IMG/VR virus record: IMGVR_UViG_3300044530_000787
Span: 1 to 22,838 of that record
Length of the DNA: 22,838 bases
Strand: one strand, 5' to 3'
Origin: a virus
This document shows positions 17,243 through 22,326 of this stretch, piece by piece. The notes under the pieces were generated by a model. The model saw nothing but the letters and a program-made list of their open reading frames with translations, was not told the origin of the DNA and did not search any database. A program made the position numbers and the translations under genes. Position 1 is the first letter of the stretch; every line of letters starts with the position of its first letter.

Positions 17243-18766
17243 ATGCAAGTATTTTGTATTCGTGTAGGTAATAAATTAAGCCAATTATATGAAGAATATT
17301 TAAGAAATAAACTTCTTGATTATAATTTTAATTGCATAAGAGAACCTTACAATAAAAAAATTTTACATCAGTGGAATAAATTATATCTAATGAACTTGGA
17401 TATAAATGAACCTATATGTGTTATTAATCCTGATATTCTATTACTAAACGACTATAAACAACTTTTTAATTACCCTATAAAACAAGGACAATTTATTGCA
17501 ACATCTAAATGGTGGGAAAATAATAAACAATATAACATAGATAATTGTTTTTATAAATTTTATCCTAAAGATTGTAAATACATTTATAATAAATTTATAT
17601 CAAATATAGATAATTATACAGACGAATACAAATCAAACAAATTTACTTTTGAAATACAAGATGGTGAACAATATTTTATAGAGGATAATATAAAAAAAAA
17701 ATTAAAATTAATTACAGTGCCTAATGAATGGTCTGGTAGATGTTTGCCTGGAAAAGATAAAAATAAAGAATTTGATAACAACATAAAAATAGTAAGTTTT
17801 AAAAACTATTATGATGATCCACTTACTATTAAAAAACCACATCAATGGAAACATTACAAATTATACAACACTGATAACTATGAAGATACTTTTTATATAT
17901 CAGATTATAAAGATTCAACTAAAAACATATCAGAAAATTTATATGCCAATAATTTTTTTATTAAAGATAATGCAAAACATATACTAGAAGATTTTACATT
18001 TTATGAATTTACATTAAAAGAATTAGGTTTACCAAGTGCTGACGTTATACTAAAAGGTGTAAAAGCCATAGAAGAAAAAGTAGGATTAGAAGGTTGGAAA
18101 ATAAATGGTGGTGAAAACAAAGGTATATATGAAGGATTTTCTTTAACATATAATAAAGATTACTTTGATAAAGATGTTTCAGTATATCATCAAACTTGGG
18201 GCCATAAGTTACAGAAACAAATTTTTAGTGGTAGAGTAGATTTAGGTAAACATAATAATCAAAAGAATAACTATTATGACACGTTTGGTTTTAGAAATAT
18301 GCACGATATAATCTATGACAATTTTAAAGAATTAATAGATAGATTAAATATGCCTTTATTAAGAAGCCGTGTTGCATATCTCTGGCATCATAATGACATA
18401 TATGATAATTTTTTAGACAATTGGCACGTAGATGAACCATCTTTTGAAATGTTAAGAATTAATATACCTTTACAAACAAGACCTGAATTTCAAATACGTA
18501 TAAAAGGTTCAGATTGGCACGGTAATACTTTTGAAATGGAAAAACATTTAGAAGTAGGTAAAGTTTATATATGGAATACAAACATACCACACGCCTATGG
18601 TTCAGTACACGGTGCACCAGAGGATTTTGAAAGAATACATTTGGTTCTTGGATTATCTACTTATTTTGATTATAATAAAGAAAAAGATTGTTTTATTAAA
18701 AACAAAAACTATGGTATGAAAATGAAAGACATTGTTTCTCAAAAATTGTTTGTTAAAACCACTTGA
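17243..18766 (+). CDS. Two-domain protein: glycosyltransferase-like N-half and Asp/Asn-hydroxylase-like 2OG-Fe(II) oxygenase C-half
   Basis: This 507-residue protein has two parts. Residues about 1-215 resemble short GT-A-like phage glycosyltransferases: a CVINPDILLLND strand (59-70) with a possible metal-binding aspartate, a hydrophobic FIATSKWW, and KIVSFKNYYDDP followed by KPHQWKHY (182-205). Residues about 290-475 carry the facial triad and 2OG-binding arginine of the Asp/Asn beta-hydroxylase type: NWHVDEP with H395 and D397, the distal histidine in NIPHAYGS (H450), and R464 in FERIHLVLGL. The C-half call is the firmer one. Together these could build and oxidise a glycan or modify a protein, but no substrate is readable. 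Codon use is very AT-rich, more so than the neighbouring nuclease gene. Its stop overlaps the -35 element of the next promoter. Confidence 0.75.
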   Translation: MQVFCIRVGNKLSQLYEEYLRNKLLDYNFNCIREPYNKKILHQWNKLYLMNLDINEPICVINPDILLLNDYKQLFNYPIKQGQFIATSKWWENNKQYNIDNCFYKFYPKDCKYIYNKFISNIDNYTDEYKSNKFTFEIQDGEQYFIEDNIKKKLKLITVPNEWSGRCLPGKDKNKEFDNNIKIVSFKNYYDDPLTIKKPHQWKHYKLYNTDNYEDTFYISDYKDSTKNISENLYANNFFIKDNAKHILEDFTFYEFTLKELGLPSADVILKGVKAIEEKVGLEGWKINGGENKGIYEGFSLTYNKDYFDKDVSVYHQTWGHKLQKQIFSGRVDLGKHNNQKNNYYDTFGFRNMHDIIYDNFKELIDRLNMPLLRSRVAYLWHHNDIYDNFLDNWHVDEPSFEMLRINIPLQTRPEFQIRIKGSDWHGNTFEMEKHLEVGKVYIWNTNIPHAYGSVHGAPEDFERIHLVLGLSTYFDYNKEKDCFIKNKNYGMKMKDIVSQKLFVKTT

Positions 18767-18797: not shown

Positions 18798-19229
18798 ATG
18801 AGAATATTATTATTGATATTAATGTTTCTACCCTCTTTGGCGCTGGCGAAGGAAGTAGAAATGAAAGTGTATGATTATAAATTAACAAGAGTATTAGATG
18901 GTGATACTGTAGGTTTTGAAGCGAAATTTCTACCAGATCCACTTAAAAAAGAATTACTAATTCGTGTTTATGGTGTTGATACACCAGAAAAAGGACACCG
19001 TGCTCAATGTCCACAAGAAAACACAAAGGGTTTAGCTGCAACTGAATTTACAAAGACTACAATTGCGAATGGTAAAAAAATACAAGTTGCCATTGCCACT
19101 TGGGATAAGTTTGGTGGTCGTGTATTAGGTGATGTATTAATTGATGGCAAATCATTACGTGTTGCATTAATCAAAAACGGTTATGCACGAGAATATTATG
19201 GCCTTGCAAAAGAGTCGTGGTGTAATTAA
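18798..19229 (+). CDS. Secreted thermonuclease (staphylococcal nuclease family)
   Basis: This 143-residue Ca2+-dependent nuclease of the SNase family has an N-terminal signal peptide (MRILLLILMFLPSLALA, cleavage likely after A17), so it should act outside the cytoplasm. The active-site residues are all present: DGDTV with D36 (SNase D21), R56 (R35), D61 and E64 in VYGVDTPE (D40, E43) and R108 in DKFGGRVLG (R87). C71 and C142 could form a disulfide in the periplasm. The start is fixed by the signal peptide and by a sigma70 promoter only 6 bases upstream. It overlaps the next gene by one base (TAATG). Possible roles are scavenging extracellular or periplasmic DNA for nucleotides, or attacking competing DNA; both are inference. 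Confidence 0.92.
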   Translation: MRILLLILMFLPSLALAKEVEMKVYDYKLTRVLDGDTVGFEAKFLPDPLKKELLIRVYGVDTPEKGHRAQCPQENTKGLAATEFTKTTIANGKKIQVAIATWDKFGGRVLGDVLIDGKSLRVALIKNGYAREYYGLAKESWCN

Positions 19230-19804
19230 TGAAGAACATACGTATTATAAAAGAGAATATAGACGTATCAGGTATTGTAAAACAATTAGAACAACATCCT
19301 GAAGATTGGGGAAATGTGGGCCGTATGAAAGGCACCGATCGCCAAGACCCTCATACACGTTTAGTTACAGCAGGTGTACTTCAATTAGTAATGGGAGGTA
19401 TTTCAAAACCTGGTGAGTTTATTGGTGACACAGAAATATGTGTGCCCACTGAAGCCGCTTCAAGACACACCGAGATCCAACGATTCCTGGCCGAAAATAA
19501 CTTTGGTAGAAGATTAGGCCGTTGCGCTTTTCTTAAAACACCTATTGGTGAAATCACAGGCAAACATATAGATGAAGGAAAGTATTATCTCACAAAAGAC
19601 CGTTATCATTTGAGTATCACAGGCACTTATCGTTACAGTGTTTGGGACCACGGTGATTTAGAATTTACGAAAGAAGAAGTGATTATAGAACCAGGTACTT
19701 TCTTCTGGTTCAACAATAAGAAAAACCATATGGCCGAGAATATAGGAAATTGTGAGAGAATTGCTTTTATATTTGACGTACCAATGTCGCCAACAAATCC
19801 TTAG
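19229..19804 (+). CDS. Aspartyl/asparaginyl beta-hydroxylase-like 2OG-Fe(II) oxygenase
   Basis: This 191-residue protein has the conserved C-terminal core of the Asp/Asn beta-hydroxylase family. Iron ligands are H113 and D115 in GKHIDEG and H167 in KKNHMAEN. RYHLSITG (125-132) and the EPGTFFWFNN turn (154-163) are family hallmarks, and R177 in CERIAFIFDV would bind 2-oxoglutarate. Residues 1-95 are not recognised. The ATG overlaps the nuclease stop by one base, so both are translated from the same sigma70-driven transcript. Its stop overlaps the stop of the convergent 136-residue gene by four bases. It could hydroxylate a host or phage protein; the target is unknown. It uses more G+C-rich codons than the 507-residue gene. 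Confidence 0.85.
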   Translation: MKNIRIIKENIDVSGIVKQLEQHPEDWGNVGRMKGTDRQDPHTRLVTAGVLQLVMGGISKPGEFIGDTEICVPTEAASRHTEIQRFLAENNFGRRLGRCAFLKTPIGEITGKHIDEGKYYLTKDRYHLSITGTYRYSVWDHGDLEFTKEEVIIEPGTFFWFNNKKNHMAENIGNCERIAFIFDVPMSPTNP

Positions 19805-20211
19805 ATTATATAAGGTTTTAATATTTCAACGACTTCGTCAAACGATTTAGATTTAATCGATAGTTTGAATATACTACGAGTTTTTCCGTCCGATAGATAT
19901 GTTTGAGAAGCACGTTCATCAATCAACGCACATTCATACATTGTACTCTTATCATTAATTGTAAGATTAACCGGTTCACCTAACGCAACTATATTAATTG
20001 AACACTGTCCATCAGTAACAGGATCACCTCTATTGTGATCTGATAACCAAGATATAGTTCCTGATACACCTAATTTTTGTATTACGTTTTCAATTATATT
20101 GGCCGTAGGGTTTGCTAATTGTTCTTTAAAAGGAAGCTTTAATTTCTTAATATAAACTTTATTTGCGTTCTGTTTTAAAGATACTGTACTTGATGATCTG
20201 ACTATACCCAT
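19801..20211 (-). CDS. Unknown late protein (136 residues)
   Basis: The protein starts MGIVRSSSTVSLKQNANKVY. A helix follows (PTANIIENVIQKLGVSG), then SWLSDHNRGDPVTDGQCSIN and alternating beta strands ending in a helix (FDEVVEILKPYII). No enzymatic or membrane signature is seen, and I do not recognise the family. An exact late box 5 bases upstream indicates late expression, so a virion or assembly role is plausible. It lies downstream of the zinc-finger gene, whose stop falls inside that box. It converges on the 191-residue oxygenase gene, with stop codons overlapping in TTAG. Confidence 0.8.
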   Translation of the reverse strand: MGIVRSSSTVSLKQNANKVYIKKLKLPFKEQLANPTANIIENVIQKLGVSGTISWLSDHNRGDPVTDGQCSINIVALGEPVNLTINDKSTMYECALIDERASQTYLSDGKTRSIFKLSIKSKSFDEVVEILKPYII

Positions 20212-20216
20212 ATGTT

Positions 20217-20224
20217 TATTTATA
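20217..20224 (-). promoter_or_regulatory. T4-type late promoter box immediately before the 136-residue gene
   Basis: An exact TATAAATA on the minus strand is followed by 5 bases and the ATG at 20211. The predicted +1 is the A of the ATG. The box includes the stop codon of the zinc-finger gene. Confidence 0.7.
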
Positions 20225-20399
20225 TGCTTTCTTTGTATATGAATTGTTTACCACAATAAAAACAAACTGCTCTAGTCTGGCCATCCTTATATTCCTTTAG
20301 TGTATAATAGACCAAAGGATGAGTTGCCTCTTGTTGCACTTCATCATAACCATCACAAGAAACCTCGTGTGTATTTGTATATAAGATTGTTTTAATCAT
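20220..20399 (-). CDS. CHCC zinc-finger protein (NDUFS6/zf-CHCC-like), 59 residues
   Basis: ATG at 20399 opens a 59-codon frame ending TAA at 20222-20220. The protein has the zf-CHCC pattern: VSCDGYDE with C15, THPLVYYTL with H27, then AVCFYCGKQFIY with C46 and C49. That family (V-x-C-D-G...GHP-x-VY...CPYCG) includes the mitochondrial complex I subunit NDUFS6 and short alphaproteobacterial proteins, where it binds one zinc. The 3' end of the 2OG oxygenase gene overlaps its start by 8 nt, so the two are probably co-translated. What a phage copy does is unknown: interference with host respiratory complex assembly and a general metal-binding role are both possible. Confidence 0.8.
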   Translation of the reverse strand: MIKTILYTNTHEVSCDGYDEVQQEATHPLVYYTLKEYKDGQTRAVCFYCGKQFIYKESI

Positions 20400-20952
20400 T
20401 TATAATTAAATGTTTCATTGATTGTACAAACTCTTCCCAGGTTCTTTCTTCATATTTTGGTCTAATTGATATAGCATAACGACTTTCTGTAGTATGATTA
20501 TTATAACCTGTATGTGGTACTGAAGCATTAACAAGATAGGCACAATTATTTTCCATAGGGTATATTTTATCCGGTAATGATTTTGTTTCTATGTCTATAC
20601 GTGGCCGACCTGCAACGTCATATACAAGTGGTTTAAGTGTATAATTCTTTGGATTGTCCCAATACTTCATACCACCATTCCCACCGTGTACCCAATTGAT
20701 ACCGTAAATTTTAGGACCTCCACGACCATCAATATGTATTACTTCATCTCTACTTCTATTTGGCCTCTTTTTAAAAGCAAGACCAAAACCATCCTTCCAA
20801 TTATATTCATTAAAATTAAATTTATTTACATCAAATACTGTATTCAAATTTCTAATATCGGTAACCAATGAGTTCATATGAAATTTTATATCATAACCTG
20901 GCCGTAGATAGTGTTCTACCTTAGGTAGATTTAATTTATAGACATATTCCAT
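20392..20952 (-). CDS. 2OG-Fe(II) oxygenase-like protein (186 residues)
   Basis: From the ATG at 20952 this encodes 186 residues beginning MEYVYKLNLPKVEHYL. A longer in-frame start at 21024 exists, but its 24 extra codons lie over a separate 33-residue membrane gene read in another frame, so I reject it. The oxygenase triad is H73 and D75 in VIHIDGRG, H147 in SVPHTGYN and R158 in TESRYAISIRP, with GINWVHGG and MKYWDNP between. Similar small proteins occur in marine T4-like phages from memory. The substrate is unknown; hydroxylation of a protein or small molecule is inferred. It is the second gene after a strong sigma70 promoter at 21072-21100 and runs into the CHCC gene. Confidence 0.75.
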   Translation of the reverse strand: MEYVYKLNLPKVEHYLRPGYDIKFHMNSLVTDIRNLNTVFDVNKFNFNEYNWKDGFGLAFKKRPNRSRDEVIHIDGRGGPKIYGINWVHGGNGGMKYWDNPKNYTLKPLVYDVAGRPRIDIETKSLPDKIYPMENNCAYLVNASVPHTGYNNHTTESRYAISIRPKYEERTWEEFVQSMKHLIIND

Positions 20953-20963
20953 ATAATTATAAC

Positions 20964-21065
20964 TTAGATATAACCGTAAACCAAACAAAACAAATAGGTG
21001 GCCAGTGAAGTACCACCAATCCATAGTATATCAGACCATATTGCTTTTTTATTCCACTTAGACAT
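20964..21065 (-). CDS. Very small membrane protein (33 residues)
   Basis: ATG at 21065-21063 starts MSKWNKKAIWSDILWIGGTS and continues LATYLFCLVYGYI to TAA at 20966-20964. The result is a basic N-terminus followed by one membrane helix (about residues 12-32). A near-perfect sigma70 promoter lies 6 bases before the ATG, which makes this frame the natural first gene of the unit and argues against the overlapping longer start of the oxygenase. Its stop is 11 bases before the oxygenase ATG. The function is unknown. Confidence 0.75.
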   Translation of the reverse strand: MSKWNKKAIWSDILWIGGTSLATYLFCLVYGYI

Positions 21066-21228: not shown

Positions 21229-22326
21229 TTATGGGTTTAAATCAATCGTTGAACCACGTACAATCACTGTGCCTGTAGTGTTTTCTGTTGTGTTGCCTTC
21301 TACGTTCTGTACCAGATTGCCTGCTACATCTATCGTTAGAGAACCACCTACCTTTAAATTCGTATCGCCGCCACTATTTAAATTTAAACGGCCAGTCAAT
21401 GTGTGTAAATTAATATCACCATTATCCACCTGTATGTTTACATTGGCACCTGGCCCTATCTGTATATCGTAGTGGTTATTCGTTTGGCCATTCTTATTAA
21501 TATATAACTTGTAACGGCCATTTATGGTCAGGTCGTTATTCTCCTGTACGTAGGTAGATCGGCCGCCGTCTATTATACTGTAATGGTCACCTTTGGTTAT
21601 ATTCGTTAATGTACCATCGGCCGAAATTTCACTTGATGTACCTGAACGGTGGCGGATATGGATTCGTTCCGCATTTGGCGTATCGTCAAACTCTTGTATA
21701 TGGCCAGACTCGGTCTCATATACGTGGTTATATGGATAAACTGCATTATAAGGTATGGCCGGCTGATCCCAGGTTGTGCCATCGCTGGCCTGTGTAATAT
21801 AACCTGATGCTGTTGCCACTGAATTATAATCGGCCGTTGCAATACCTGTGATACGTGTTGCTCTACGGATTGTTAATGCTAAACTTGGATTGATTTCATT
21901 ACCATCCGAATCCTTTGAATTAACGGCCAGTCTATTTACATCTGGTTCGTTTTTGTATTTCGGATAAACCTCGTTTGGATCATTAAATCCTTTTCTACTA
22001 TCGGCCAGATTGGTTGGTCGGCCAGGTAAACTACCTAATATAACTGGCTCTTGACGATATTGCCCATCACGAAAAAACCCAAACACCCAACTTCCTTCAA
22101 GTAAACCGGTCGCCGACTGGCCAATACCTGAAACGCCGCTGGCCGTGATTGGTAAAACACACAATGCCCACGGTAGATCGGCCGTTGGTAGAATTGATTT
22201 GTTTTCTGTATGTTGACCAAGTATTCGTACTCGTAAACGGCCAGTTTTGAGTGGGTCTGAACGATCTTCAACGACGCCAGAGAACCAGAGAAAACCTCCA
22301 AGTCCCATAAAGTTTTCGTTATTCAT
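21229..22326 (-). CDS. gp5: Baseplate hub/tail spike protein gp5 homologue without lysozyme domain
   Basis: This 365-residue homologue of T4 gp5 forms the trimeric central spike. Residues 12-100 form the OB-fold: WFSGVVEDRSDPLKTGRLRV (14-33; T4 WFVGVVEDRMDPLKLGRVRV), LPWALCVLPITASGVSGIGQ (51-70) and VFGFFRDG. The T4 lysozyme domain (EEGLRLKVYWDTEG region) is absent, as in T4-like cyanophages. The conserved junction follows at 197-220: YPYNHVYETESGHIQEFDD with TPNAER (T4 YPYVHTMETESGHIQEFDDT). The C-terminal part (about 230-365) is the repetitive beta-helix spike (NVNIQVDNGDINLHTLTGRL, then NTTENTTGTVIV), which the PAAR protein should cap. The gene is visibly richer in G+C than the others and has 17 GGCC sites. 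A weak ACGAGAG ribosome site precedes the start. Confidence 0.95.
   Translation of the reverse strand: MNNENFMGLGGFLWFSGVVEDRSDPLKTGRLRVRILGQHTENKSILPTADLPWALCVLPITASGVSGIGQSATGLLEGSWVFGFFRDGQYRQEPVILGSLPGRPTNLADSRKGFNDPNEVYPKYKNEPDVNRLAVNSKDSDGNEINPSLALTIRRATRITGIATADYNSVATASGYITQASDGTTWDQPAIPYNAVYPYNHVYETESGHIQEFDDTPNAERIHIRHRSGTSSEISADGTLTNITKGDHYSIIDGGRSTYVQENNDLTINGRYKLYINKNGQTNNHYDIQIGPGANVNIQVDNGDINLHTLTGRLNLNSGGDTNLKVGGSLTIDVAGNLVQNVEGNTTENTTGTVIVRGSTIDLNP

Follow-up and report, generated by a model that had tools for sequence, protein, structure and literature searches.

In described organisms, the closest counterparts of the protein reported here are small zinc-binding accessory subunits of respiratory complex I. 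The Paracoccus denitrificans subunit, as described in PMC11522691, binds zinc, has no counterpart of the N-terminal domain found in mitochondria, makes most of its contacts with NDUFS1 and NDUFS8 and stabilises the N-module; its Asp48 helps to bridge calcium to NDUFS8. The mitochondrial subunit NDUFS6, reviewed in PMC8762328, has an extra N-terminal domain and acts late in assembly, at the N-module step in eukaryotes, and in Yarrowia the loss of NDUFS6 or of one zinc ligand disturbs cluster N4. We describe a homologue of the NDUFS6 zinc domain, about as long as the minimal alphaproteobacterial subunit, in a viral contig. The window, meaning the whole stretch of DNA that was analysed, is a 22,838-base IMG/VR record of the class linear, which is often a fragment.

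The zf-CHCC gene and its neighbourhood

An earlier note, made from the letters alone, had picked out a 59-residue frame with C15, H27, C46 and C49, read it as a zf-CHCC protein resembling NDUFS6 that could interact with host respiration, and taken it as something that would support an alphaproteobacterial host. Translation confirms the coordinates and the residues of the frame (Table 1). The strand, which the note left unstated, is the minus strand; on the plus strand a stop codon interrupts the reading of the same interval in the matching frame. The zf-CHCC signature is recovered by the Pfam model PF10276 with 35.9 bits (E 7.3e-9) against a curated cut-off of 27, and neither a missing zf-CHCC match nor unrelated zinc ribbons as nearest relatives, the outcomes named beforehand as speaking against the reading, was found. 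PF10276 is matched by all 44 distinct phage proteins, the window's included (E up to 0.01), and in all 44 the residues C15, H27, C46 and C49 occur in order without exception, together with the invariant positions G17, P28, Y31, Y32 and Y48. PHROGs and NCBIfam gave no match for the window protein.

The 59-residue frame is a real gene and more than a chance pattern, because the Pfam match is joined by two further lines of evidence. A cellular NDUFS6-type profile made of four fragments scores the window protein at 17.1 bits, compared with a maximum of 9.6 among shuffles of its own residues (2000 made, 1862 scored). In addition, dN/dS is below 1 in all eight pairs formed with relatives of the window gene (0.09-0.44), and the gene is under purifying selection.

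Table 1. Positions of the zf-CHCC gene and neighbouring features in the window
Feature	Position	Strand	Remarks
Protein of Asp/Arg hydroxylase or 2-oxoglutarate oxygenase character	17243..18766		putative, by motif reading
Staphylococcal-nuclease-like protein	18798..19229		PF00565, phrog_452; hydrophobic, signal-peptide-like N-terminus
phrog_32420 protein	19229..19804	(+)	sub-threshold Asp_Arg_Hydrox match; convergent
136-aa protein, no assigned function	19801..20211	(-)	starts 8 bases past the zf-CHCC stop
zf-CHCC (NDUFS6-type) gene	20220..20399	(-)	59 aa; C15, H27, C46, C49, presumed zinc ligands by family membership
210-aa protein just upstream	20392..21024	(-)	final 8 bases overlap the start of zf-CHCC
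T4 gp5-like baseplate hub protein	21229..22326	(-)	borders the variable slot; anchor for slot counts

Among 50,697 phage records, Megablast matches the window to a single one, Pelagibacter phage Mosig, over 22% of the window at 73.9% identity, and the gp5-like protein is 57.5% identical to that of Mosig. The window is a T4-like contig from an uncultured marine phage, probably with a SAR11 host. A hint of the alphaproteobacterial host proposed in the earlier note thus exists, but it comes from the rest of the window and its nearest isolate. The zf-CHCC gene itself is weaker evidence, since the tree described below groups the phage proteins with a gamma type, though a grouping with SAR11-like proteins is not rejected. 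The Pfam model finds no zf-CHCC in the whole records of Mosig and HTVC008M, nor does the phage profile in Mosig.

Because the zf-CHCC gene overlaps the gene before it and is followed by a gap of only 8 bases, it may form one transcript with the 210-aa and 136-aa genes, and the overlap makes translational coupling possible. The 210-aa protein, which matches nothing in Pfam, PHROGs or NCBIfam, is perhaps an Fe(II)/2-oxoglutarate oxygenase, judging from an HxD...H...R pattern. Homologues of the 136-aa protein lie near zf-CHCC in four other loci (L001, L003, L004 and L005), directly adjacent in L001 only. In relatives, whether they carry zf-CHCC or lack it, the phrog_32420 protein marks the far end of the slot. 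Next to the zf-CHCC gene, Pfam and PHROGs recognise no respiratory gene in the window, which counts against a role in complex I.

Three proteins of putative Asp/Arg hydroxylase or 2-oxoglutarate oxygenase character lie close together in this region; a Pfam match, below threshold, exists only for the phrog_32420 protein, and the other two (17243..18766 and the 210-aa protein) are motif readings. Where relatives encode the staphylococcal-nuclease-like protein, its identity is 78-100%.

Predicted fold and sequence relatives

The resemblance to NDUFS6 proposed in the earlier note is borne out by profile matches to PDB chains and by the predicted fold. A profile built from twelve phage sequences, with the window protein among them, places NDUFS6 chains of mitochondrial complex I on top (best E 1.7e-4). 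The Paracoccus subunit of 62 residues comes next (E 0.0074), then two NMR structures of short alphaproteobacterial proteins (E 0.067 and 0.11), and Hsp33 (one at E 0.018) and other zinc proteins appear in weaker rows. Wherever the zf-CHCC matches of this search have a named role, they are complex I subunits.

The AlphaFold2 model of the window protein, built from an alignment of 44 phage sequences, has a mean pLDDT of 92.2. Every one of Foldseek ranks 1-18 is a chain from a complex I or supercomplex entry (probability 0.99-1.00, E 1.4e-3 to 6e-2). The chains also named in the PDB profile search are NDUFS6-type, and we take the remaining ones to be so too; zinc subunits of cytochrome oxidase come after them. 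By VIA, the best match is the Paracoccus subunit (8qby chain R; Z 7.6, rmsd 3.0, 54 of 59 residues aligned), and bovine mitochondrial NDUFS6 (7qsd chain R) reaches Z 5.8 over 51 residues, the predicted likeness being to its C-terminal zinc domain. A Z below 8 could by itself mean a common arrangement, and the weight therefore rests on the consistency of the family. A shallower model from 13 sequences has pLDDT 82, VIA Z 4.2 and no significant Foldseek match. The window protein is accordingly predicted to have the fold of the NDUFS6 zinc domain.

The same results bear on whether an unrelated zinc ribbon, or a CxxC/H pattern that arose by chance, has been mistaken for a family member. The protein is short, a single-sequence search against PDB chains gives weak matches only (best E 0.004), and the 44-sequence model has no Foldseek match below E 0.001, as is to be expected for a protein of this length. 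Set against the Pfam score, the family match in 44 of 44 proteins, dN/dS, the shuffle control and the joint Foldseek and VIA results, such an explanation is hardly credible.

The window protein and the Paracoccus subunit share the four Cys/His positions and the absence of an N-terminal domain, but they are only 24-26% identical, the spacing is C-x11-H in the phage-encoded protein and C-x9-H in Paracoccus, and the position of Asp48 is occupied by Gly50. Among phages the spacing ranges from 3 to 11. In contrast, all 31 SAR11-like proteins and 55 of the 67 in the mainly alphaproteobacterial set have C-x8-H, within a CDGGxxxLGHP loop that is usual, not universal, in alphaproteobacteria and absent from the window protein. 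Asp is present at the Asp48 position in only 23/48 phage, 20/67 mainly alphaproteobacterial and 1/31 SAR11-like sequences, and the calcium-bridging residue is therefore not generally required.

Two other motifs were compared between the phage proteins and the cellular groups. The HPxV[YF][YF] motif is found in 31/31 SAR11-like, 5/67 other mostly alphaproteobacterial and 0/17 gamma-type distinct sequences, and in 47/48 phage sequences, a share biased by the scan that yielded most phage members, which sought a [TD]HP[LK]VYYT or C[FH]YCG stretch. The proline of CPYC, present in 57 of the 67 mainly alphaproteobacterial proteins, is absent from all phage (48), SAR11-like (31) and gamma-type (17) sequences. 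The zf-CHCC proteins of the probable SAR11 order (such as L130 and L364-L383) thus share HPxV[YF][YF] and a non-proline CxYC with the phage proteins; unlike these, they have a CDGGxxxLGHP-type loop of fixed length, lie on host contigs and take a separate place in the tree. The gamma type (CSDNGQHPLVY..CxYCGQ) shares HPLVY and CxYCG with the phages, but has C-x5-H, VYI in place of VYY and an rlmB-like neighbour in the three loci read. In these loci (L160, L161 and L166) the distinct gamma-type gene, with CSDNGQHPLVY, lies beside a gene named rlmB-like from its translation.

In a maximum-likelihood tree of 131 rows and 54 columns, whose bootstrap had not settled, phages group with the gamma type (99/86), apart from SAR11-like proteins, and gamma-type proteins fall among the phage proteins. 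Constraining phages and SAR11-like proteins to group together, on the same 54 columns, lowers the log likelihood by 6.8 units, and the AU test does not reject it (p 0.394).

These features raise the question of whether the zf-CHCC fold has been re-used as a small adaptor for another protein or a nucleic acid, unrelated to respiration. A loop length unlike that of the cellular subunits, the grouping with a type whose gene adjoins an rlmB-like gene and the lack of recognised respiratory neighbours all point that way. NDUFS6, however, leads both the fold and the profile matches, and the zf-CHCC profile matches of named role are complex I subunits, so that we regard re-use as an adaptor as somewhat unlikely.

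Occurrence in viral contigs

Within IMG/VR, a first protein scan yielded 12 loci and an alignment scan 13. Among the contigs behind the first 12 loci, 11 are Pfam-positive; the miss is G006, though locus L006 has an intact 56-aa copy. Anchoring on gp5 covered the best 80 of 524 matching loci, of which 53 have at least 1 kb downstream, and zf-CHCC is present in seven of these 53 (L194, L196, L197, L207, L229, L237 and L252). L196 and L252 encode an identical zf-CHCC protein, and of the seven carriers only L229 was new relative to the first 13 contigs. In L190-L193, the four loci nearest in gp5 (87-92%), the 3.8-4.0 kb downstream contain no zf-CHCC, and the same two borders enclose other genes. 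Because only seven of the 53 loci carry the gene and the four with the nearest gp5 do not, zf-CHCC is an accessory gene in these phages.

Once the divergent L229 protein was included, the search reached a wider family of 60 + 12 loci on 69 IMG/VR contigs after merging, with contigs up to 342 kb and profile matches in all 70 loci from L270 to L339. The phage status of these contigs rests on IMG/VR and on a PHROGs spot check, in which four of nine neighbour proteins matched (PAAR, tail-fibre-like, DnaB-like helicase and one of unknown function). Occurrence in uncultured viral contigs is therefore wide but patchy. One zf-CHCC gene (L311) lies in a very long viral contig, which measures 342,607 bases as assembled.

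Phage libraries show almost no trace of this viral zf-CHCC branch. In the 50,697 phage records, from which records very near the window may have been left out, tblastn queries with the window protein and two members of the wider family brought up no credible relative; matches in 26 Gordonia phage records (E 9, 34%) were put down to chance. PHROGs searched with the 44 members gave one marginal match (E 0.0083), and in BFVD no structure matched the fold at E 0.001 or better. Viral scans that started from the SAR11-like protein L130 (39 stretches) or from four fragments of cellular or mitochondrial origin (23 stretches) yielded no confirmed member, and neither did a scan of bacterial genomes with the phage alignment (52 pattern-matching stretches). 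Titles and abstract starts of the open-licence PMC literature revealed no phage zf-CHCC or phage NDUFS6 gene, and the auxiliary metabolic gene section of a study of pelagimyophages (PMC7029224) does not mention one. The zf-CHCC family is thus known, and its phage branch was not found in the literature or viral libraries searched.

The genes around zf-CHCC raise the possibility of another function, that of an iron-sulphur helper serving phage or host iron-sulphur enzymes. In some contigs zf-CHCC has radical SAM genes and an A-type iron-sulphur carrier in its vicinity, and the review cited above raises an assembly-factor past of NDUFS6 (PMC8762328). The radical SAM linkage, suggested by neighbour clustering, proved not to exceed chance: 14 of 26 contigs have no radical SAM gene at all, and in the 12 that do, zf-CHCC lies within 2 kb of one in four, where 3.0 are expected. 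The carrier is found in gp5 loci where zf-CHCC was not seen as well, some of these loci being cut short, and its linkage was likewise set aside. Since the radical SAM linkage is no better than chance, the iron-sulphur helper has lost its main support and is very unlikely.

Both gene types nevertheless recur in these contigs. A-type carrier genes lie near the baseplate slot or zf-CHCC in L274 (7703-8029, PF01521) and, by tblastn, in L275, L284, L288, L302 and L308; tblastn also detects them in gp5 loci L205, L209, L212, L213, L215, L236, L261, L265-L267 and L269, where zf-CHCC was not seen. The contigs of L292, L304, L311 and L313 have 7 to 17 radical SAM matches each.

The probable host enzyme and a possible role in complex I

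In the class of a Ruegeria genome (Alphaproteobacteria), 305 of 385 genomes encode zf-CHCC. The phage profile, run against 51 small zf-CHCC-positive genomes, gave 32 matches at E up to 1, the best in G176 (43.1 bits). The second best, G219 at 41.3 bits, may come from a different order than G176, a point against the reading favoured below. Among 398 genomes drawn from the phylum, the profile matches 75 (E up to 0.01), with a top score of 35.8 bits, below that of G176. G176 belongs to the same order as G045, which is probably the SAR11 order because its genomes measure 0.9-1.6 Mb and four of its loci have 29-32% G+C. In this order zf-CHCC is present in 75 of 80 genomes and NDUFA12, a mitochondrial-type accessory subunit, in 36 of 40, so the host group probably has an enzyme that such a protein could bind.

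We tentatively read the protein as a phage counterpart of the complex I subunit in its zinc-domain-only form. It would bind zinc, would be made during infection and would sit on the mitochondrial-type complex I of the host, at the NuoG/NuoI (NDUFS1/NDUFS8) surface used by the host zf-CHCC subunit. By replacing that subunit or competing with it, the phage protein may keep up or tune NADH oxidation in the infected cell. Support of the enzyme seems likelier than a block, although the preference for support over dampening is a guess. Weighed against docking at complex I are the altered C-to-H loop, the gamma-type tree grouping, Gly50 and the accessory status of the gene.

The same surface could also be used in the opposite sense, as a decoy: the phage protein would take the NDUFS6 site, block attachment of the N-module and shut down host NADH oxidation. 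The same predicted fold with an altered loop beside the zinc site would suit this possibility, as would the action of NDUFS6 at the N-module assembly step in eukaryotes (PMC8762328). A phage in need of ATP would presumably gain little by stopping respiration, however, and we consider a decoy quite unlikely.

The more general proposal, that marine T4-like phages, SAR11 phages included, carry their own complex I accessory subunit to control host NADH oxidation during infection, is doubtful at present. Should the protein act on complex I, phages would have a very small instrument for the energy metabolism of a host group among the ocean's most abundant bacteria. Its gene would serve respiratory control and be of a kind that the cultured-phage records searched did not show, and it would offer a simple test case for the viral remodelling of a respiratory enzyme. 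Even without a role in complex I, the protein extends into viruses a family in which the members seen here with a name are complex I subunits.
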